Positions 10,449 through 30,526 of a stretch of DNA of 64,000 nucleotides are shown here, in pieces. The notes below the pieces were generated by a model. The model saw nothing but the letters and a program-made list of their open reading frames with translations. It had not been told where the DNA came from and made no database searches. Within the stretch, counting starts at the first letter, position 1, and the number at the start of each line of letters is the position of its first letter. The translations under genes were made by a program, and so were the position numbers. The DNA lies in NCBI GenBank assembly GCA_020436025.1, contig JAGQYP010000006.1, forward strand, positions 1 through 64,000. Direction: 5' to 3'. This DNA comes from Crocinitomicaceae bacterium (GTDB taxonomy: Bacteria > Bacteroidota > Bacteroidia > Flavobacteriales_D > Crocinitomicaceae).

Positions 10449-10658
10449 TGTATTATTTTTTTAGAAAACTCCCCTAAAATAAGAAAATCCCGCTATTTCT
10501 AAATATGAGTTAAAATTGGTTTTCAGATTTAATGAAAAAACATGTCTCTGTTCACATAATCCATATATTCCTCTGAAATAAATCGCTTTAGAATTCCACG
10601 AAAGACTGCTTTTTTGGTTCAAATATTCCCGATAATTTTTAATTATATTCGTGCCAAT

Positions 10659-11078
10659 ATGCTTTCTAAGAGAACTAAATACGGTTTAAAGGCTTTGACA
10701 TTCATAGCTAAACAGGACAAAGAAAATCCTGTTCAAATTGCTACGATTTCAAAAGAAGAAAACATCTCACATAAGTTTCTTGAATCGATCCTATTAAGCA
10801 TGCGAAAAGCCGGATTCCTTGGATCCAAAAAGGGAAAAGGAGGAGGCTATTACCTTTTAAAAGATGCGGATAAAATTCAAATGAGCGATGTGATTCGGCT
10901 TTTAGAAGGTCCCATTGCCATGCTTCCATGCGTAAGTTTAAACTTCTATGAAAGATGCGATGATTGTCCTGATGAAACAAAATGCAGTGTACATGCACTC
11001 ATGATCGAAGTTCGAGACGCTACCCTGGAGATCCTTAAAAACAAGACTTTAGCCGATCTTGTAGCTGATATTTCTTAA
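10659..11078 (+). CDS. Rrf2 family transcriptional regulator (likely cysteine/Fe-S responsive)
   Basis: A 139-residue Rrf2/IscR-type repressor with an N-terminal winged helix (MLSKRTKYGLKALTFIA, recognition helix HKFLESILLSMRKAG, wing GKGGGYYL). Cys91, Cys100, Cys103 and Cys109 form a cluster ligand set close to that of [2Fe-2S]-binding members. The start is the ATG at 10659; the in-frame TTG at 10614 adds residues foreign to the family. It stands 106 bases before the sulfate assimilation genes and is the obvious candidate regulator; in other bacteria Rrf2 members such as CymR control cysteine metabolism. Target site inferred: the inverted repeat at 11142-11160. Confidence 0.9.
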   Translation: MLSKRTKYGLKALTFIAKQDKENPVQIATISKEENISHKFLESILLSMRKAGFLGSKKGKGGGYYLLKDADKIQMSDVIRLLEGPIAMLPCVSLNFYERCDDCPDETKCSVHALMIEVRDATLEILKNKTLADLVADIS

Positions 11079-11106: not shown

Positions 11107-11137
11107 TTTGGAACACATTGATTTTCATTTACCTTTG
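11107..11137 (+). promoter_or_regulatory. Promoter of the sulfate assimilation operon
   Basis: TTTG (11107-11110), a 19-base spacer and TACCTTTG (11130-11137) fit the Bacteroidota promoter consensus exactly. Transcription would begin near 11142-11145, at the edge of the inverted repeat that follows. Confidence 0.75.
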
Positions 11138-11184: not shown

Positions 11185-11439
11185 ATGATAATTGATCAAG
11201 CAATACCAAGAAATACGGGCTACACAGAAGATCGAACAAGTGGTGATAAACCCTTAAGAAGCATCATAAAATCGATCAGCTGGCGTCTTGTGGGCACCTT
11301 GGACACGATACTTATTTCTTGGGTAATTACAGGTGAACTGACTCTGGCATTCTCCATTGGTTCGATCGAATTATTCACAAAAATGATCTTGTATTTCTTT
11401 CATGAAAGAATTTGGAACAATGTTAAATGGGGTAAATAA
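11185..11439 (+). CDS. DUF2061 family small membrane protein
   Basis: An 84-residue DUF2061 protein with two transmembrane helices (about 35-52 and 56-70). Family marks are SWRLVGTLDTILISW and the C-terminal HERIWNNVKWG. In Bacteroidota it regularly heads sulfate assimilation operons, as here, which suggests a part in sulfate or sulfite handling at the inner membrane; the biochemical role is not known. It has its own consensus promoter, and its stop is four bases from the cysH start. Confidence 0.88.
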   Translation: MIIDQAIPRNTGYTEDRTSGDKPLRSIIKSISWRLVGTLDTILISWVITGELTLAFSIGSIELFTKMILYFFHERIWNNVKWGK

Positions 11440-11442
11440 AAA

Positions 11443-12054
11443 ATGATGAATCTGGAAAATATCAATAACGAATTAAAAGAGAAGTCTCCAAAAGAGATTA
11501 TCGAATGGGCGATGAATAATTCTGAAAGACCCGTTCTTACAACAAATTTCAGACCTTATGAATCGGCTATTTTGCACGCGGTTTCAAATGTAAAACTCGA
11601 TATAAAGGTCATTTGGTGTGATACTGGGTACAATACTCCAAACACCTACAGACATGCCAAAGAATTAATTGATCAGCTCGAATTGTCTGTGGATATCTAT
11701 GTGCCTAAAATTTCTGTTGGCTATCGAAATGTGCTGATGGGAATACCTGAAGTGGATACAGATGAACACCAGGAATTCACGGAACAAGTCAAATTGGAAC
11801 CCTTCCGAAGAGCCATGGAAGAACATCAACCAGATTTATGGTTTACGAATTTGAGAAAAGGTCAAACAGCTTTCAGAGACTCCATCGATATTGTTTCAAA
11901 AGGAAAAGATGGCAAAATCAAAGTGAGTCCATTTTACCATTGGACAGATGAAGAATTAGACGTATACCTTGATACTCATAATCTTCCAAACGAATTCAAA
12001 TATTTCGACCCAACAAAGGTATTGTCGAACAGAGAATGCGGACTTCATGCTTAG
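11443..12054 (+). CDS. cysH: Phosphoadenosine phosphosulfate reductase
   Basis: A 203-residue PAPS/APS reductase family enzyme, which reduces activated sulfate to sulfite. The P-loop-like phosphate region TTNFRPYESAILHAV is at 33-47, IKVIWCDTGYNT follows, and the C-terminal catalytic Cys is in RECGLHA, the last residues. The CC...CxxC cluster of assimilatory APS reductases is absent, which favours PAPS as substrate; however, no APS kinase (CysC) is seen in the window or fused to CysN, so the substrate is open. It is at the short end for the family (about 240 residues in enterobacteria). Followed one base after the stop by a purine-rich repeat. Confidence 0.88.
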   Translation: MMNLENINNELKEKSPKEIIEWAMNNSERPVLTTNFRPYESAILHAVSNVKLDIKVIWCDTGYNTPNTYRHAKELIDQLELSVDIYVPKISVGYRNVLMGIPEVDTDEHQEFTEQVKLEPFRRAMEEHQPDLWFTNLRKGQTAFRDSIDIVSKGKDGKIKVSPFYHWTDEELDVYLDTHNLPNEFKYFDPTKVLSNRECGLHA

Positions 12055-12136
12055 GAGTAGTGAGCAAGAGAATTGAGCAAGAGCAAGAGTAGTGAGCAAG
12101 AGCAAGAGTAGTGAGCAAGAAAAATAATAAAGAGAA
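12055..12136. repeat. GAGCAAGA-type repeat spacer between cysH and cysD
   Basis: Purine-rich spacer built from GAGCAAGA, GAGTAGT and GAATT words, starting directly after the cysH stop and ending just before cysD. It is closely related, base for base at its start, to the spacer after cysD at 13046-13137. Confidence 0.7.
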
Positions 12137-12142
12137 TTAGAT

Positions 12143-13045
12143 ATGAAAAATATATTAGAAAATAATGCATTAGAAAACGAAGCCATCTTCATCATTCATG
12201 AAGTTGCGGCTCAGTTTGAAAAGCCGGTTCTGTTGTTTTCAGGTGGAAAGGATTCAATCACATTGGTGAGATTGGCTCAAAAAGCTTTCTATCCTGCTAA
12301 AATTCCTTTTCCTCTGCTACATGTAGATACAGGACATAATTTTCCTGAGACCATCGAGTTCCGAGACAATTTGGTTGAAGAATTAGGTTTAGAATTGATC
12401 GTTAGAAATGTCCAGGACAATATTGACGCTGGACGAGTTAAAGAGGAAACAGGGAAATACGCTTCCAGAAACATGCTCCAAACGGAGACCCTTTTGGATG
12501 CCATTGAGGAATTCGGTTTTGATGCTTGTATTGGTGGGGCTCGTCGTGATGAGGAAAAAGCAAGAGCTAAAGAACGCATTTTCTCCGTTCGAGATGATTT
12601 CGGACAATGGGATGAAAAAAACCAAAGACCTGAAGTATTCGATATGCTCAATGGACGCATTGATCTTGGTCAAAATGTTCGTGTTTTCCCAATTTCGAAT
12701 TGGACGGAACTGGATGTTTGGTCCTACATTGAAAAAGAAGGTATCGAAATCCCTTCTATCTATTTCGCACACAAAAGACCTGTTTTCGAGAGAGATGGTT
12801 TGATCTGGTCGGCAAATGATGAATATGTCTACCGAGAAAATGATGAATTGGTATATGAAAAAATAGTTCGTTTCAGAACTGTCGGAGACATGTCTTGTAC
12901 CGCAGCAGTTGAATCCAATGCTTTTATCATTGAAGATGTAGTGAGAGAAATTCGAGAATCGAAAATATCAGAACGAGGTGCTCGTATCGATGATAAAAGA
13001 TCGGAAGCTGCCATGGAAAAAAGGAAACAACAAGGATACTTTTAG
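12143..13045 (+). CDS. cysD: Sulfate adenylyltransferase subunit 2
   Basis: A 300-residue CysD, the catalytic small subunit of ATP sulfurylase (sulfate + ATP to APS + PPi), an N-type ATP pyrophosphatase. The SGGKDS loop is at residues 34-39 (LFSGGKDSITLVRLA), followed by HVDTGHNFPETI, GGARRDEEKARAKER and FRTVGDMSCTAAVES, all diagnostic. Length is typical. It works with the GTPase subunit CysN encoded next. The spacer between them (298 bases) is unusually long for an operon and consists of repeats. Confidence 0.95.
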   Translation: MKNILENNALENEAIFIIHEVAAQFEKPVLLFSGGKDSITLVRLAQKAFYPAKIPFPLLHVDTGHNFPETIEFRDNLVEELGLELIVRNVQDNIDAGRVKEETGKYASRNMLQTETLLDAIEEFGFDACIGGARRDEEKARAKERIFSVRDDFGQWDEKNQRPEVFDMLNGRIDLGQNVRVFPISNWTELDVWSYIEKEGIEIPSIYFAHKRPVFERDGLIWSANDEYVYRENDELVYEKIVRFRTVGDMSCTAAVESNAFIIEDVVREIRESKISERGARIDDKRSEAAMEKRKQQGYF

Positions 13046-13137
13046 AGTTGTGAGCAAGAGAATTGAGCAAGAGCAAGAGTTGTGCCCTTCGAAAAGCTCA
13101 GGAACCGCAAGAGTTTTGAGCAAGAGCAAGAAAAATT
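13046..13137. repeat. GAGCAAGA repeat spacer interrupted by REP-like element
   Basis: A second copy of the purine-rich spacer found after cysH. Here the GAGCAAGA words are interrupted at 13085-13106 by a REP-like half palindrome (CCCTTCGAAAAGCTCAGG core), absent from the first copy. The same core occurs at 14981-15002 and 61047-61066. Confidence 0.7.
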
Positions 13138-13223
13138 AATTGGACAATAGATACTAGATAATAGATTCTAGACAAAAGACAACAGAGAAAAGACAATGAA
13201 CAATTAACAATTAACAATTAAAA
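13138..13223. repeat. Iterated AACAATT/GACAATAGA words
   Basis: Low-complexity spacer of degenerate words (ATAGATACTAGATAATAGA, then AACAATTAACAATTAAC). A comparable AACAATGAATAATG tract stands at about 14610-14690 in front of the second copy of the following duplicated module. Confidence 0.55.
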
Positions 13224-13343
13224 ATGGGTAAAAGACTTAGTTAGAAATTGAATTGATTTAGAAGATTAAATATCAATCTATTAGTCTGAAAGTCTTGCAA
13301 TCTGAAAATCTTGTAGTCTTGCAGTCTCAAAATCTTAAAAAAA
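13224..13343 (+). repeat. Duplicated leader module, copy 1 (before cysN)
   Basis: A 120-bp segment that recurs, diverged, at 14689-14819. Both copies begin with a six-codon mini-ORF (MGKRLS, stop), continue with AATTG and AGTCTGAAA words, then TCTTGCAATCT/TCTTGTAGTCT words, and end CAGTCTCAAAATCT plus an A-rich stretch right before an ATG. Here the ATG is that of cysN. Confidence 0.65.
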
Positions 13344-14594
13344 ATGGAAGTACTTAAAATAGCAACAGCAGGAAGTGTGGATGATGGAAAGTCCACTTTG
13401 ATTGGTCGGATTCTGTATGATACGAATTCATTGACTGATGATAAATTAGAGGCAATTGAAAAAAATAGTCGATCTAAAGGATATGATTACTTGGATTTTT
13501 CTTTGGCAACAGATGGATTGGTAGCGGAAAGGGAACAGGGCATCACAATTGACGTGGCTCATATCTACTTTTCTACAAATAAAAGATCCTACATCATTGC
13601 AGATACTCCGGGTCACATTGAATATACCCGAAACATGGTTACCGGAGCCTCAACTTCTCAAGCATCCATTATTTTAGTGGACGCTCGAAATGGGGTGATC
13701 GAACAAACTAAAAGACACTTTTTTATCAATAATTTATTGCGTGTAAAGGAGATCATTGTAGCTGTCAATAAAATGGATTTGGTGAATTTTGAAGAAGGTC
13801 GTTTCAATGAAATAAAAGATCAAATACAACAATTGGTTGATTCGGCTTCCTACAAAAATCAGAATATCACTTTCGTTCCAATTTCGGCATTGAAAGGTGA
13901 TAATGTGGTGAAGAAATCAGAAAATACAACCTGGTATACAGGAGAAACTTTGTTGGAGCATCTAGAAAAAATTGAAAACAAAGATGTTTATGAAGAAGCG
14001 CAAGCAAGGTTTCCCGTACAAACGGTGATCAGACCAAAAACAGATGAATACCATGATTTTAGAGGATATGCGGGCAAAATTTATGGAGGGGATTTATCTG
14101 TAGGTGATGAAGTGGTGATTCTACCTTCGGAAACGAAATCAAAAATAAAAGAAATCCACTTTTTTAATGAGCAATTTCAATCGGCCAAAAGAGGTTCTTC
14201 TGTGACCATTACATTAGAAGATAATGTGAATGTTTCTAGAGGAGACATGATCGTAAAAGCCAATGAAATACCAAATGTCAGTAAATCGCTAAATGCCACT
14301 ATTTGTTGGATGGACAACAATCCACTTAAACCGCTATCCAAATATTATTTGCAACACGGGGTAAATAATGTAGCAACAAAAATAGAGTCGATTGATTCCA
14401 TTTTAGCGACTGATTTTAGCGGAGAAACAACGGAAGTGTCTGAATTGAATTTAAACGATATCGGTAAGGTTCAACTAAAAGTTAATAAACCTCTATTTTA
14501 TGATTCCTACGATGAAAACAAAGGCAATGGAGCTTTTATTTTAATTGATAGTCAAACAAATACAACTGCAGGAGTAGGATTCATTAATGGATAA
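13344..14594 (+). CDS. cysN: Sulfate adenylyltransferase subunit 1 (GTPase)
   Basis: A 416-residue EF-Tu-like GTPase that couples GTP hydrolysis to APS formation by CysD. G1 is AGSVDDGKST (residues 9-18), switch regions include REQGITIDVAHIYF, G3 is ADTPGHIEY, and G4 is AVNKMDL; two beta-barrel domains follow. There is no C-terminal APS kinase extension, so this is CysN rather than NodQ/CysNC. It is flanked on both sides by copies of a duplicated leader module. Downstream, an attenuator separates it from the sulfite reductase gene. Confidence 0.95.
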   Translation: MEVLKIATAGSVDDGKSTLIGRILYDTNSLTDDKLEAIEKNSRSKGYDYLDFSLATDGLVAEREQGITIDVAHIYFSTNKRSYIIADTPGHIEYTRNMVTGASTSQASIILVDARNGVIEQTKRHFFINNLLRVKEIIVAVNKMDLVNFEEGRFNEIKDQIQQLVDSASYKNQNITFVPISALKGDNVVKKSENTTWYTGETLLEHLEKIENKDVYEEAQARFPVQTVIRPKTDEYHDFRGYAGKIYGGDLSVGDEVVILPSETKSKIKEIHFFNEQFQSAKRGSSVTITLEDNVNVSRGDMIVKANEIPNVSKSLNATICWMDNNPLKPLSKYYLQHGVNNVATKIESIDSILATDFSGETTEVSELNLNDIGKVQLKVNKPLFYDSYDENKGNGAFILIDSQTNTTAGVGFING

Positions 14595-14688
14595 AAAAGA
14601 GATGTTAGACAATAGACAATTAAAAATGAACAATGAATAATGAATAATGAACAATGAATAATGAACAATGAATAATGAATAATGAATA
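14595..14688. repeat. Iterated AACAATGAATAATG tract
   Basis: After cysN the spacer iterates AACAATGAATAATG words up to the second leader module. The minus-strand ORF that runs through this tract is an artefact of the repeats. The gene-free stretch from here to 15035 is otherwise filled by the second leader module, the leader ORF, the attenuator and a REP-like element. Confidence 0.65.
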
Positions 14689-14819
14689 ATGGGTAAAAGA
14701 CTTAGTTAGGAATTGATGTAGAATAATAATGTAGTCTGAAAATCTGATAGTCTTGCAATCTTGTAGTCTTGTAGTCTTGTAGTCTTGCAATCTTGCAGTC
14801 TCAAAATCTAAAAAATCAA
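14689..14819 (+). repeat. Duplicated leader module, copy 2 (before Cys-rich leader ORF)
   Basis: Second copy of the module at 13224-13343. It begins with the same MGKRLS-stop mini-ORF, has extra TCTTGTAGTCT iterations, and ends CAGTCTCAAAATCT with an A-rich run directly before the ATG at 14820. The shared placement before a start codon supports the view that the small ORF is translated. Confidence 0.65.
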
Positions 14820-14900
14820 ATGAATAAAAATCAAACATATTGCTGCTTTTGTTGGATGAACCCATTTATGGTTCCCAATAGCAAATGGAATGAAGATTAA
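14820..14900 (+). CDS. Cys-codon leader peptide of sulfite reductase attenuator
   Basis: A 26-codon ORF, MNKNQTYCCFCWMNPFMVPN followed by SKWNED and a TAA stop. Codons 8, 9 and 11 are TGC, TGC and TGT, a dense cysteine run inside an otherwise ordinary peptide. It starts directly after a leader module identical in kind to that before cysN, and stops 22 bases before a strong terminator hairpin upstream of the sulfite reductase gene. This is the expected form of a leader peptide whose translation senses charged tRNA-Cys. Alternatively it is a small functional Cys-rich protein or chance. Inference from sequence only. Confidence 0.6.
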   Translation: MNKNQTYCCFCWMNPFMVPNSKWNED

Positions 14901-14960
14901 ATAGTCAATTAGTTTCAATCTTAAAAGTCCGTTTGTTAATACTCAAACGGACTTTTTTTT
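14848..14960 (+). promoter_or_regulatory. Putative cysteine-responsive transcription attenuator
   Basis: Three alternative pairings. Pause hairpin 1:2 is TTTGTTGG (14848-14855) with CCAA (14875-14878) and CAAA (14882-14885), enclosing GAACC (14858-14862)/GGTTC (14870-14874). Antiterminator 2:3 is TAGCAAATGGA (14879-14889) with TCCGTTTGTTA (14928-14938), 11 pairs including two G-U. Terminator 3:4 is 14923-14935 with 14944-14956. Region 1 overlaps the third Cys codon and region 2 the end of the ORF, so stalling at Cys would favour 2:3, while completed translation would cover region 2 and permit termination. Confidence 0.6.
14923..14960 (+). terminator. Strong rho-independent terminator (attenuator 3:4 stem)
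   Basis: AAAAGTCCGTTTG (14923-14935) pairs perfectly with CAAACGGACTTTT (14944-14956) across an 8-base loop; eight T residues occupy 14953-14960. It lies between cysN and the sulfite reductase gene, so it either ends the cysN transcript or acts as the conditional arm of the attenuator. Confidence 0.9.
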
Positions 14961-14980
14961 ACCCAAAAAAAGAAGAAGAT

Positions 14981-15002
14981 CCCTTCGGCTACCGCTCAGG
15001 GC
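14981..15002. repeat. REP-like half palindrome
   Basis: CCCTTCGGCTACCGCTCAGG core with CCCT/AGGG ends. It belongs with the copies at 13085-13106 and 61047-61066. It is followed by three iterations of GAACTTA (about 15010-15032) ending at the sulfite reductase start. Confidence 0.6.
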
Positions 15003-15035
15003 AACGCTTAGAACTTAGAACTTAGAACTTAAATT

Positions 15036-16223
15036 ATGCAAAGTTTTAGAACAGAATTAGAAAATCCAGTCGTTGAAAAAGACATTTTAGAACTGGAAAA
15101 AAAGATCCTCCTTTTCAAAGAGGGGAAAATAGATGAAGAAAAATTTAGAAGCCTAAGATTGGCACGTGGAGTCTATGGTCAAAGACAACCAGGTGTTCAA
15201 ATGATTCGAATTAAACTGCCTTATGGGAAAGTGACCTCTAAGCAGTTACGAAGAATTTCAGATGTGGCTGACGAATATTCGACGGGTCGATTACACATTA
15301 CAACTCGCCAAGATATTCAAATCCACCATGTGAGTTTGGATCGCACTCCTCAGCTTTGGGCAGAGTTGGAAAAAGACGATATTACCCTTCGTGAGGCTTG
15401 TGGAAATACGGTTCGAAACGTCACTGCGAGTCCGACTGCCGGAGTAGACCCAAACGAAGCATTTGATGTGACTCCCTATGCGGATGCCGTTTTCAATTAC
15501 TTTTTACGAAATCCATTTTGCCAGGAAATGGGTCGAAAATTCAAGATTTCTTTTTCTGGAAGCGAAGAGGATACGGCTTTGGCCTACATGCATGATCTTG
15601 GGTTTATTGCCAAAGTTCAACTGAAAGAAGGAAAAAAAATTCACGGATTCAAAGTTTTACTTGCAGGTGGTTTAGGTTCCCAACCTCGATTAGGTGATGT
15701 GGTTCAAGAGTTTCTCGAAGCTGATCAATTGATTCCCTTTATCGAAGGAGTTTTAAGGGTTTATGATCGCCATGGAGAACGATCTAATCGAAACAAAGCG
15801 AGAGTCAAGTTTTTGGTTAAATCGATTGGTCCAGAAGCGTTCATCGAATTGGTAGAAGCGGAAAAAAAAGCTCTTTATCAGCAATCCTACCCTATACAAT
15901 ATTTGGAGTCTGAAACGAAAATAGCGCTTCATTCTGCACCAACAATTCGAATAGACAATGATCCTCTTTTTGAGATTTGGAAGAAAACAAATGTACTTCC
16001 TCAGAAACAAAAAGGATTGGTAAGCATTGGTGTTCGCGTGCCTTTGGGAGATTTCTATACAGATCAAGCTCGTGACCTGGCTGAACTGATTGCGAACTAT
16101 TCAGGAGATGAAATTCGATTTACCCTGCGCCAGGATCTTCTAATTCGAGATGTTCCGGAAGAATCCATTTCATTTTTTTTATCAAGAACTCAAAAAGCTG
16201 AATTTAGCCAGTCCGGGATTTGA
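15036..16223 (+). CDS. Sulfite/nitrite reductase, N-terminal part (frameshifted gene)
   Basis: The first 380 or so residues of a siroheme [4Fe-4S] sulfite/nitrite reductase: ferredoxin-like half-domain with GVYGQRQPGVQMIRIKLPYG near 46-65, TGRLHITTRQDIQIHH near 88-103 (substrate and siroheme Arg/Lys set), and ACGNTVRNVTASPTAG near 128-143. The reading frame is lost at a run of eight T at 16173-16180, and the translation ends in unrelated residues. Read with seven T, the frame joins the following ORF into a 701-residue protein of normal length. Setting and partners point to assimilatory sulfite reduction rather than nitrite. Confidence 0.88.
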   Translation: MQSFRTELENPVVEKDILELEKKILLFKEGKIDEEKFRSLRLARGVYGQRQPGVQMIRIKLPYGKVTSKQLRRISDVADEYSTGRLHITTRQDIQIHHVSLDRTPQLWAELEKDDITLREACGNTVRNVTASPTAGVDPNEAFDVTPYADAVFNYFLRNPFCQEMGRKFKISFSGSEEDTALAYMHDLGFIAKVQLKEGKKIHGFKVLLAGGLGSQPRLGDVVQEFLEADQLIPFIEGVLRVYDRHGERSNRNKARVKFLVKSIGPEAFIELVEAEKKALYQQSYPIQYLESETKIALHSAPTIRIDNDPLFEIWKKTNVLPQKQKGLVSIGVRVPLGDFYTDQARDLAELIANYSGDEIRFTLRQDLLIRDVPEESISFFLSRTQKAEFSQSGI

Positions 16224-17142
16224 ATCTACTTTGGATATTACGGCTTGTCCGGGAACAGATACTTGTAATTTAGGAATCGCTAGTTCAACCGGAATTACAA
16301 AAGAACTTAGTGAAATCATTCAAAACGAATATCCTGAATTCATTTCGAATAAAGATTTGACTATCAAAATCTCTGGATGCATGAATTCTTGTGGTCAACA
16401 TTCCATGGCTCCAATAGGTTTTCAAGGGATGTCGATCAAAGTGGATCAGAAATTAGCTCCCGCTCTACAGGTTTTACTCGGAGGAGGAAACTTAGGAAAT
16501 GGAAATGGAAGATTCGCTGATAAAGTGATCAAAATCCCAAGTAAAAGAGGTCAGCAAGCACTTCGCATTTTACTGGATGATTATGTCGAAAATGGGAAAG
16601 AACAGGTGTTTCATGAATATTATGATCATCAGGGTAAAGCTTATTTCTACGAGTTACTGAAAGATCTGTCTATTACGGATAATCTAGTGGAGGATGATTT
16701 TGTGGATTGGGGTCATGACAAATCCTACATCCAAGCGATTGGAATAGGAGAATGTGCTGGCGTGGTGATAGATTTAGTGGCTACTCTATTTTTTGAATCC
16801 GAAGAAAAGCTTTTGTTAGCCAAAGACAACTTGAATTCAAATCAGTGGGGAGATAGTATTTATCACTCCTATGCTTCCATCATCAATTCTGCCAAGGCAC
16901 TTTTGAGTTTGGAACAGAAGAAAACAAACTCTTACGCGAAAATTATAGAGGATTTTCAAACTGAATTTGTAGCTACAAAAAAAATCAAATTGGCGATCAG
17001 TTTTCAGGAATTTGTATACCAGATAAAGGAAAATGAACCATCCATTGAATTCGCCTACAGTTTTTTTGAAGATGCAGAGAATTTTTACAAACAAGTCGAC
17101 CAATACCGACTTAAAAATTTACAAAATGAGAACTCAAAATAA
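16150..17142 (+). CDS. Sulfite/nitrite reductase, C-terminal part (frameshifted gene)
   Basis: Continuation of the reductase from about 16180 in the +1 frame; the apparent ATG at 16150 precedes the true junction and is not a start. The cluster and siroheme ligands are here: CPGTDTC and SGCMNSCGQHS (Cys-x5-Cys and Cys-x3-Cys), followed by the second half-domain. The last 150 residues are a helical extension of the HEPN-like type found on flavobacterial members, of unknown function. It overlaps the SumT gene by 17 bases, consistent with co-expression of the enzyme and its siroheme cofactor pathway. Confidence 0.85.
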   Translation: MFRKNPFHFFYQELKKLNLASPGFESTLDITACPGTDTCNLGIASSTGITKELSEIIQNEYPEFISNKDLTIKISGCMNSCGQHSMAPIGFQGMSIKVDQKLAPALQVLLGGGNLGNGNGRFADKVIKIPSKRGQQALRILLDDYVENGKEQVFHEYYDHQGKAYFYELLKDLSITDNLVEDDFVDWGHDKSYIQAIGIGECAGVVIDLVATLFFESEEKLLLAKDNLNSNQWGDSIYHSYASIINSAKALLSLEQKKTNSYAKIIEDFQTEFVATKKIKLAISFQEFVYQIKENEPSIEFAYSFFEDAENFYKQVDQYRLKNLQNENSK

Positions 17143-17914
17143 ATTATTTACTCTTGTTGGCGCTGGGCCAGGCGATCCTGAATTGATCAGCATAAAAGGA
17201 ATAAAAGCACTCAATACTGCAGATGTTGTTTTGTACGATGCATTGGTCGACACCTCCCTACTCGATCACGCGCCAAGAGCCAAAAAGATATTTGTAGGCA
17301 AAAGATTGGGGTATAAAAAATACAATCAAGAAGAGATTAATACATTGATTGTTCAATCTGCTTTTAATTATGGGCATGTGGTCCGACTAAAAGGAGGTGA
17401 CCCATTCATTTTCGGTCGTGGATCAGAAGAAATCGAATACGCTGAAAATTTTGGTATTCCCACTGCAATTGTTCCTGGAATAAGCTCCGCAACATCCGTT
17501 CCCGCCTCCTTGGGGATTTCTCCCACCAAAAGAGGAGTTTCGGAAAGCTATTGGATCATTACAGGCACCACAAAAACGGGAAGTTTAAGTGAAGACATCG
17601 CCCTGGCCGCTCAATCAACCGCTACAGTTGGCATCTTGATGGGCATGAGTAAACTTTTAGAAATTGTCAAACTCTTCCAACAAAATGGAAAAGGTGAAAC
17701 TCCGGTAGCAATCATCCAAAACGGAACATTAGCAAATGAAAGATCAGGTATAGGAACGATCAACACGATTGTAGAAGTTGTCAATCAAAAACAACTCTCC
17801 AACCCCGCCCTAATCATCATCGGCGAAACAGTAGCTGAAAGCCACAAACTAAAAGACTACCTTAAAAATATAGAGCTCAAACCACAACCAACCATTCTAC
17901 ATTCTACACTCTAA
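17126..17914 (+). CDS. cobA: Uroporphyrinogen-III C-methyltransferase (SumT)
   Basis: A 262-residue SAM-dependent methyltransferase that converts uroporphyrinogen III to precorrin-2, the first committed step to siroheme. Diagnostic motifs: TLVGAGPGDPELISIKG near residue 9, DVVLYDALV, VRLKGGDPFIFGRGSEE and the VPGISSATSVPASLGI segment. The ATG at 17126 gives the family N-terminus; an earlier ATG at 17033 lies inside the reductase gene and is rejected. It supplies siroheme for the reductase encoded just upstream. Confidence 0.93.
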   Translation: MRTQNKLFTLVGAGPGDPELISIKGIKALNTADVVLYDALVDTSLLDHAPRAKKIFVGKRLGYKKYNQEEINTLIVQSAFNYGHVVRLKGGDPFIFGRGSEEIEYAENFGIPTAIVPGISSATSVPASLGISPTKRGVSESYWIITGTTKTGSLSEDIALAAQSTATVGILMGMSKLLEIVKLFQQNGKGETPVAIIQNGTLANERSGIGTINTIVEVVNQKQLSNPALIIIGETVAESHKLKDYLKNIELKPQPTILHSTL

Positions 17915-17947
17915 ATTCATAATTCTACATTCTTAATTCCTAATTCA
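17915..17947. repeat. Iterated TTCTACATTC/TAATTC words
   Basis: Short spacer between the SumT and dehydrogenase genes made of degenerate TTCTACATTC and AATTC words, which begin already in the last codons of the SumT gene. Confidence 0.45.
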
Positions 17948-18523
17948 ATGAATTCCCTCTATCCCATATTTCTAAAAACAGAAAAGCTCAACATCCTCAT
18001 TATTGGAGGAGGAAAAGTGGGACTGGAAAAACTAAGCTTTCTGTTGAAATCAAGTCCTGAGGCAAATGTGGAAGTCATCAGTATGGAATTTCACAATGAA
18101 ATAAAGGAACTCGCTCATCAACATAAAATTAAACTGACTCATAGAGCATTCAGGAAAAAAGATTTAAAAAATAGATCGATTGTGATATCTGCTACAAACG
18201 ATGCACAAAAAAACAAGGAAATTCATCACTTGGCGAAAAAGAAAAGAATATTAATTAATGTAGCAGACACACCAGAATTATGTGATTTCTATCTAGGTGG
18301 AATCGTTACCAAAGGTCATGTGAAAATCGCTATTTCAACTGGAGGAAAATCGCCCACAACGGCTAAAAGAATGCGCCAATTTTTTGAAGAAGTCATTCCA
18401 GAAAATATGAATGAAATGGTAGAGAATTTAAATACCTACAGAAACTCAATCAAAGGGGATTTTGCAACCAAAGTTTCTCAATTAAATGAATTAACTAAAA
18501 GTCTAATAAATAAACAATCATGA
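17948..18523 (+). CDS. Precorrin-2 dehydrogenase / siroheme ferrochelatase-type protein
   Basis: A 191-residue protein matching the N-terminal half of CysG and Met8/SirC: YPIFLKTEKLNILIIGGGKVG (Rossmann NAD motif GGGKVG), VISATND, INVADTPELCDFYLGGIV with the catalytic Asp, and AISTGGKSPTTAKRMR. It oxidises precorrin-2 to sirohydrochlorin with NAD+ and, in Met8-type proteins, also inserts iron. No separate ferrochelatase (SirB) is in the window, so both activities may reside here (inference). Its stop overlaps the next start by four bases. Confidence 0.9.
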   Translation: MNSLYPIFLKTEKLNILIIGGGKVGLEKLSFLLKSSPEANVEVISMEFHNEIKELAHQHKIKLTHRAFRKKDLKNRSIVISATNDAQKNKEIHHLAKKKRILINVADTPELCDFYLGGIVTKGHVKIAISTGGKSPTTAKRMRQFFEEVIPENMNEMVENLNTYRNSIKGDFATKVSQLNELTKSLINKQS

Positions 18524-19572
18524 TTCAAACAGATGTCTTAATTATCGGAGCAGGCCCTGTGGGAATGTTCACCGTGTTCGAAGCCGGACTACTCAAGCTT
18601 AGATGTCATCTCATTGACGCATTACCTCAACCCGGTGGCCAATGTGCTGAAATCTATCCTAAAAAACCCATTTATGATATCCCGGCTTATCCAGAAGTTT
18701 TGGCTGGTGATCTCATTACGAATCTAGCAGAACAAATTCGTCCTTTTGAACCAGGGTATACCTTGGGTGAAAGAGCGGAAACTATTGAGAAATTGGAAGA
18801 CAATAGTTTTCTGGTAACAACCAATAAAGGAGCAGTTCATCACGCCCCAGTTATTATCATTGCAGGAGGTTTGGGATCCTTTGAACCTAGAAAACCTCCC
18901 ATCCCGAATCTGGATCAATTTGAAGAAAAAGGAGTGGAGTACTTTATCAAAGATCCTGAGATTTACCGCGACAAAAAAGTGTTGATTTCCGGAGGCGGAG
19001 ATTCAGCTTTGGATTGGTCTATTTTCCTAGCTGACGTGGCAAGTGAGGTAAATTTAGTGCACCGAAGAAATGAATTCAGAGGCGCCTTGGATTCCGTTGA
19101 AAAAGTAATCGAATTATCGAAAATCGGAAAAATCAATCTCATTACTGAAGCTGAAGTGAAAGAAATTCATGGAAAAGAACATGTAGAGGCTCTTGTGATT
19201 CAAAGTAAATCAGAAGGAGAAATTTACAAAGAAGTGGATCATTTCATTCCACTATTTGGTTTAGCTCCCAAATTGGGTCCGATCGCCAACTGGGGCTTGG
19301 AAATTGATAAAAATGCTATCGTAGTCAACAATGCTTTAGATTATTCTACCAACATTCCAGGAATTTTTGCTGTGGGAGATGTCAATACCTATCCCGGTAA
19401 ATTAAAACTGATTCTATGCGGTTTTCACGAAGCAACTATTGCAGTTCAATTTGCTTATAATATCATTCACCCAGATAAAAAGTATGTGATGAAATATACA
19501 ACTGTTGGAGGTGTGGAAGGATTTGATGGAAGTGTGAAGGAAGCCAAAAAAGCGGCTATCGTAAAAGTTTAA
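18520..19572 (+). CDS. Ferredoxin-NADP reductase (thioredoxin reductase-like, type 2)
   Basis: A 350-residue flavoprotein of the YumC/ycgT-type ferredoxin-NADP reductases. FAD motif IIGAGPVGMFTVFEAG (residues 7-22), PGGQCAEIYPKKPIYDIPA typical of the group, NADPH motif ISGGGDSALDW near 157-167, and the C-terminal FAVGDVNTYPGKLKLI. It lacks the CxxC of thioredoxin reductases. Coupled to the siroheme gene by a four-base overlap, it is the likely electron donor route (NADPH to ferredoxin to sulfite reductase). A terminator closes the operon. Confidence 0.92.
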   Translation: MIQTDVLIIGAGPVGMFTVFEAGLLKLRCHLIDALPQPGGQCAEIYPKKPIYDIPAYPEVLAGDLITNLAEQIRPFEPGYTLGERAETIEKLEDNSFLVTTNKGAVHHAPVIIIAGGLGSFEPRKPPIPNLDQFEEKGVEYFIKDPEIYRDKKVLISGGGDSALDWSIFLADVASEVNLVHRRNEFRGALDSVEKVIELSKIGKINLITEAEVKEIHGKEHVEALVIQSKSEGEIYKEVDHFIPLFGLAPKLGPIANWGLEIDKNAIVVNNALDYSTNIPGIFAVGDVNTYPGKLKLILCGFHEATIAVQFAYNIIHPDKKYVMKYTTVGGVEGFDGSVKEAKKAAIVKV

Positions 19573-30160: not shown

Positions 30161-30265
30161 TGAATGAAACTTTAAAAATGAAACAATACACTTTCGGGTA
30201 AAAATTTAGAATCTGAACGAGTCAAAATCCTAGCTTTTATCCTGAAAGCTGTGAATTAACTAAAA

Positions 30266-30434
30266 CCTTGGCCGGTATTCTGACTCGCTCCCTTGTCCTG
30301 AAAGCCTTCCCATTCAATTTGCTTGAACAGTGGCATTATCCAGGTTTTTGAGAACTTACAGCTGCAGGAACAGTTTTGGATTTTCACCAAATTCCCTTTT
30401 CAATCCCGATTCGGGATAACCAAAATTCTGGTAC
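30266..30434 (-). promoter_or_regulatory. Cobalamin riboswitch (AdoCbl/B12 aptamer)
   Basis: On the minus strand the conserved aptamer elements occur in order: AAAAGGGAA, GGTGAAAATCC, ACTGTTCCTGCAGCTGTAA (B12-box region), TGCCACTG, ATGGGAAGGC, and GCGAGTCAGAATACCGGCC. Together they match the class I cobalamin riboswitch. The expression platform lies in the 105 bases before the DUF4465 start; a hairpin AGCTTT/AAAGCT near 30234-30251 is a candidate part. High corrinoid would lower expression of the four-gene uptake operon. The remainder of the gap to 30526 holds the promoter region of the rightward lipoprotein gene. Confidence 0.93.
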
Positions 30435-30526
30435 GAAGATACGACAAAGAACTTATTTATTGAATATATGGCATACTCTTTGTAAATTTAGGGCATCGAA
30501 CAATCAATACTTAAAAATTAAAACGC

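Follow-up and report, generated by a model that had tools for sequence, protein, structure and literature searches.

We identified a putative trp-type, ribosome-mediated transcription attenuator that would read the cell's cysteine supply, placed directly before the sulfite reductase gene in a 64,000-nucleotide stretch of Crocinitomicaceae DNA (hereafter the window), and we give this reading a probability of about 90%. Such a device would most likely let the cell make sulfide only under cysteine scarcity. The first-pass annotation, made on the window alone, had proposed an attenuator of this type at 14820-14960; its interpretation is supported by the comparisons below, which show a system far wider than could be seen from the window.

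The leader and the RNA elements before the sulfite reductase gene

The leader lies between cysN (13344-14594) and the sulfite reductase gene, which starts at 15036. The elements considered here are the following:

11107-11137, + strand: candidate Bacteroidetes-type operon promoter, called from the consensus (TTTG at 11107, TACCTTTG at 11130)
11443-14594, + strand: cysH, cysD and cysN, in the same operon upstream of the attenuator, from domain searches
14820-14900, + strand: leader ORF, MNKNQTYCCFCWMNPFMVPNSKWNED, 26 codons plus stop; ATG start at 14820 and TAA stop at 14898-14900, read from the sequence
14841-14852, + strand: predicted regulatory codons TGC TGC TTT TGT (Cys-Cys-Phe-Cys), a Cys cluster that recurs across leaders
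14848-14885, + strand: candidate 1:2 hairpin, with its pairs present but marginal
14879-14889, + strand: antiterminator 5' arm (region 2), TAGCAAATGGA, starting 27 nt past the last Cys codon
14928-14938, + strand: antiterminator 3' arm, TCCGTTTGTTA, overlapping the terminator 5' arm
14923-14956, + strand: intrinsic terminator hairpin, 14923-14935 (AAAAGTCCGTTTG) with 14944-14956, a perfect 13 bp
14953-14960, + strand: T8 tract of the terminator, read from the sequence
15036-16223, + strand: predicted controlled gene, sulfite reductase hemoprotein, first part, with NIR_SIR domains
16150-17142, + strand: sulfite reductase gene, second part, in another frame, from sequence and domain search
17033-19572, + strand: downstream operon genes (tetrapyrrole methylase, siroheme synthase-like, NAD(P)H-dependent reductase), from domain searches

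The ORF, the 11-bp antiterminator, the 13-bp terminator and the T8 tract are all found where the first-pass annotation had placed them. The three Cys codons (TGC 14841, TGC 14844 and TGT 14850) encode residues 8, 9 and 11 of the leader. The attenuator region folds better than 200 of 200 dinucleotide shuffles (z -3.7), and the antiterminator duplex, 11 bp with two G-U pairs, reaches -12.8 kcal/mol against -6.4 in shuffles (z about -3.8). The pause hairpin of the first-pass annotation fared less well: its pairs exist (14848-14851 with 14882-14885, and 14852-14855 with 14875-14878), but as a conserved part it is not borne out, with a marginal p of 0.09 in the window and pairing no better than chance (Fisher p 0.053) across the 63 nonredundant leaders on which all pairing and spacing statistics are based. 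Simple tandem repeats lie on both flanks of the attenuator, at 14625-14691, 14730-14801 and 15007-15031 (AATGAAT, AGTCTTGC and CTTAGAA units).

A structured leader ending in a terminator, such as this one, could also be a riboswitch, a T-box or a protein-binding leader that senses cysteine with translation irrelevant. We regard this as highly unlikely, since the leader gives no Rfam 15 match at the gathering score, the weak ones (PyrR, E 0.06) falling far below the cut-off, and across genera there is no conserved RNA core, just the codons and the pairing.

Operon context and promoters

Domain searches of the operon identified PAPS reductase family genes (cysH and cysD), CysN, NIR_SIR, a tetrapyrrole methylase and a siroheme-synthase-like protein. 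All NCBIfam reductase models scored below their cut-offs for the window reductase, and its identity as a sulfite, not nitrite, reductase is taken from the cysHDN and siroheme neighbours in the operon. Its frame changes in an eight-T run (16174-16181), whereas in relatives the gene is a single frame of about 700 codons; the split in the window may reflect either a faulty assembly or a disrupted gene. The first gene of the cys operon encodes a small DUF2061 membrane protein (11185-11439), preceded by a gene for an Rrf2-family regulator (10614-11078). Elsewhere in the window there is a cobalamin riboswitch (30253-30439, - strand, 111.5 bits).

No promoter box near the window leader fits the TAnnTTTG-type consensus fully, and the leader is probably transcribed from the candidate cys operon promoter at 11107-11137, which would make it an internal attenuator. 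Across the 63 leaders, a TAnnTTTG-type box is found within 80 nt upstream in 34, with 6.5 expected. In some relatives just 4-11 nt separate this box from the ATG, which makes their ORFs nearly leaderless.

Distribution in Bacteroidia

We collected sulfite reductase loci from the family, the order and the class (n=143) and scanned all of them by one rule, a short ATG ORF with a Cys cluster and a stop at most 60 nt ahead of an intrinsic terminator. The rule matched 78 of the 143 loci, or 77 once chance matches were removed; as it demanded Cys doublets, the Cys enrichment of the leaders is partly built in, while the Met enrichment, the pairing and the spacing are not. Chance overlaps (for example MIGCFC) and antisense matches were removed before counting, and matches of the type MCGCMPSRLL before the sulfite reductase of Tenacibaculum and Polaribacter turned out to be a ferredoxin gene read out of frame. 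The class-wide set comprises 93 elements from 20 families and 32 genera, with two in series at 16 loci, and probably includes the cultured Fluviicola taffensis RW262 (leader MIQKNFMLQMQMCCMSQKEMRKE). The relatives keep the terminator and antiterminator together with the Cys codons, in favour of the first-pass annotation, which had proposed an alignment to look for conserved Cys codons; the peptide is otherwise little conserved.

The element was undetected at 66 of the 143 loci, including whole families, and it is lacking in the Cytophagales and Flavobacteriaceae that made up most of a collection of named genomes. The device is thus not essential for regulating the sulfite reductase gene. Where a family lacks the element, its reductase gene is usually not preceded by any terminator. 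This last point, together with the strength of the window hairpin, fits another explanation, namely an ordinary terminator that ends the cysHDN transcript, next to a chance ORF and followed by a separate sulfite reductase promoter. However, a Cys-doublet ORF precedes 77% of the terminators upstream of sulfite reductase genes and only about 0-3% of those elsewhere: 2 of 73 in 400 kb of a Fluviicola-type genome (G097; one site counted twice), 0 of 48 in 229 kb of the genome to which the window belongs (G000) and 0 of 16 in the remainder of the window. The synonymous change at the Cys codons and the calibrated antiterminator (see below) also speak against it. A reductase promoter past 14960, one of the findings that the first-pass annotation had said would refute its proposal, did not appear, with no promoter-like box found between the terminator and the reductase start (14955-15040). 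We therefore consider an ordinary terminator very improbable.

Three groups have the attenuator about 1 kb further upstream, where it precedes an extra gene located before sulfite reductase. In genus g10 and part of f32 this gene is, by our reading, aldo/keto-reductase-like (its first 60 residues gave no Pfam call), and in genus g207 it encodes an AhpC/TSA peroxiredoxin, as checked in L200. At this locus (family f49) the peroxiredoxin gene stands between the attenuators and sulfite reductase, which hints that control is shared with oxidative defence.

Complete attenuators stand two in series at L005, L011, L012, L067, L205, L213, L294, L301 and L324. In several tandem pairs the first leader stops at the Cys cluster and has a longer spacer to its terminator, and the second has a longer tail.

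Pairing, spacing and ribosome position

The antiterminator was measured as the best duplex that the terminator 5' arm forms with the stretch past the last Cys codon, against dinucleotide shuffles. Over the 63 leaders the mean z is -2.4, with p<=0.05 in 38 and a Fisher p of 7e-37, and the 5' segments pair better with their own terminator arm than with the arms of other families. In 57 of the 63 the antiterminator 5' arm starts 8-21 nt past the last Cys codon, compared with 31% of shuffles (maximum 46%); the window, where region 2 starts at 27 nt, is outside this usual range. A ribosome holding a Cys codon in its A site would have its leading edge within about this 8-21 nt range. In well-supported cases the antiterminator ends before the stop codon or at most 18 nt beyond it, and would thus be covered wholly or in part by a ribosome that has reached the stop.

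The first-pass annotation had predicted that a stall exposes region 2 and that a ribosome at the stop covers it, and folding of the window transcript before the 3' terminator arm agrees: with a ribosome mask on the Cys codons the antiterminator stands at 0.98, and with the mask at the stop the value is about 0. In the full-length RNA at equilibrium the terminator is favoured (0.97) even with the Cys codons masked, so the choice of readthrough must be kinetic, as in classical systems.

We also considered that the ORF acts mainly by polarity or translational coupling and not by terminator/antiterminator switching, as mycobacterial polycysteine uORFs act in the absence of conserved terminators (PMC1262725; Canestrari et al. 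2020, as relayed in PMC13236596). Nearly all of the leaders studied here, however, have an intrinsic terminator behind them, at a distance that varies little, and a matching antiterminator, which makes such a mechanism improbable, although less so than the ordinary terminator.

Codon evolution and methionine

The element occupies the same position in a congener (G001), where the leader reads MNTHFKYCCFCWMNCMKVPKRKWYVI. Between the two leaders, all three clustered Cys codons and the preceding Tyr codon have changed synonymously; these four are the only synonymous changes, against 12 amino-acid changes elsewhere. Over congener pairs, Cys codons show 39 synonymous and 30 nonsynonymous differences, and other residues 101 and 365, respectively. 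The Cys codons are thus conserved at the amino-acid level. The leaders share only the Cys cluster (with Met) and are otherwise unlike in peptide sequence and length. A search with the 26-residue peptide finds the congener as its sole match because the peptide is not conserved, and relatives were found by searching with the reductase gene and then scanning upstream.

These data also bear on whether the ORF encodes a small Cys-rich protein that works in trans, by metal or redox binding, and lies before sulfite reductase by chance. The Cys clusters here are CxxC-like, and clusters of this kind resemble metal-binding peptides. What is conserved, however, is the position and the spacing to the terminator and not, beyond Cys and Met, the peptide sequence or its length, which leaves a protein acting in trans with hardly any credibility.

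Methionine makes up 12% of leader residues compared with about 2% in the window proteins (about 6-fold), and occupies position -1 relative to the Cys cluster in 46% of leaders and position -2 in 43%. In the 12 nt ahead of the Cys cluster, ATG triplets are in frame in 75 cases and out of frame in 6. In the window leader, Met comes after the Cys cluster and not before it. The Met codons may act as methionine sensors, an appealing role, as both amino acids draw on sulfide. A broader proposal, that the leaders are joint sulfur-amino-acid sensors in which Met codons set tightly beside the Cys codons would let a shortage of either charged tRNA open the operon, with two sensors in series in some lineages, is possible, but we put it forward tentatively and at somewhat less than even odds. 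Two leaders of family f52 (L212 and L211; MPMHYCYMMREQI and MNNNFIAVKTDARMMYSCSKTK) contain a single Cys and pairs of Met, stand before a terminator of this type and would fit Met sensing.

Further cysteine leaders

A second Cys leader, MNALKLNTCCLCFCSPRTEAKRCI, is present in the window's genome before cysE-cysM, together with a promoter, an antiterminator and a terminator, and is nearly identical in the congeners (L407 584-750, G000:C116; L466, G001:C26). In G340 (L431, about 2411-2550, - strand) the leader MTFSTNMCCCCCCCLTDRGRLRMRG and a terminator stand directly before a cysteine synthase gene, and in G725 a Cys leader precedes cysE. The targets, sulfite reductase, cysE-cysM and cysteine synthase, have one common product, cysteine. 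No element of their own was found at the cysH/cysD, cysS, sulfate permease and PF01053 loci examined; for cysS, there were 0 Cys-doublet matches among the 24 terminators at 30 PF01406 loci (the cysS of 16 genomes plus weaker matches).

Proposed mechanism

The element combines clustered codons, an intrinsic terminator before the first regulated gene, a mutually exclusive antiterminator, the region 2 geometry (27 nt in the window) and a downstream gene in cysteine synthesis, as in trp-type attenuators. From these parts, their conservation and spacing, and the like element before cysE-cysM, we infer that the leader is translated, that ribosomes stall in it and in which direction the operon responds. 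RNA polymerase would leave cysN and transcribe the leader, with a ribosome translating it meanwhile. When Cys-tRNA is short, the ribosome would stall on the Cys codons and leave 14879-14889 free to pair with the emerging 14928-14938, delaying the terminator until the polymerase is inside the sulfite reductase gene. When Cys-tRNA is plentiful, the ribosome would reach the stop at 14898 and cover region 2, the terminator (14923-14956) would form and transcription would end.

If correct, this mechanism would link Cys-tRNA directly to sulfur assimilation at the RNA level in many bacteria, the cultured F. taffensis among them, and would explain in a simple and testable way how many Bacteroidota regulate their assimilatory sulfite reductase and their synthesis of cysteine. 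The distance from codons to antiterminator implies that in Bacteroidota a translating ribosome follows close behind RNA polymerase, a coupling that could be tested with this natural reporter. New questions on multi-input attenuation come from the leaders in tandem and from the Met-Cys codons, and joint sensing, if true, would point to an old, fast-evolving and translation-coupled control of sulfur metabolism across Bacteroidia.

Comparison with known systems

The element shares with trp/his/leu-type attenuation a leader ORF with tandem codons for the end product, an intrinsic terminator, a competing antiterminator and a cognate biosynthetic gene. In contrast, the Bacteroidia leaders read Cys (perhaps also Met), do not conserve a protector 1:2 hairpin and are sometimes found two in series. 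The host also differs, since Bacteroidota initiate translation largely without Shine-Dalgarno pairing.

Mycobacteria and other Actinobacteria have polycysteine leaderless uORFs with no conserved terminator hairpins, whose control was described as translational or polar (PMC1262725; Canestrari et al. 2020, as relayed in PMC13236596). Like the Bacteroidia leaders, these are short ORFs that contain runs of Cys codons and lie ahead of cys operons. The Bacteroidia elements, however, all have an intrinsic terminator and an antiterminator, and the window leader is internal to its operon, with no good promoter box near, and not leaderless. Closer in design is the uORFC-8-2 motif, a short uORF with tandem Cys codons followed by an intrinsic terminator before cysS of Rhodobacterales, for which Cys-tRNA attenuation was proposed (PMC8632094). 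That motif belongs to cysS in Alphaproteobacteria, whereas the Bacteroidia leaders belong to sulfite reductase and cysE/cysM and have a free antiterminator and Met-Cys clusters.

Within the same phylum, unspecified clues to leader-peptide attenuation before amino-acid operons were mentioned for Flavobacterium psychrophilum (PMC9723704); the text names pheA, hisG and others, and no cysteine or sulfur gene among them. The first-pass annotation knew of no such attenuator in Bacteroidota sulfate assimilation, and despite these clues the open-access literature agrees: a search of it found no report of a Bacteroidota cysteine attenuator. Ribosome-mediated attenuation is well described, and Cys leaders have been reported from mycobacteria and Rhodobacterales; what is new in relation to this literature is the widespread Bacteroidota form.
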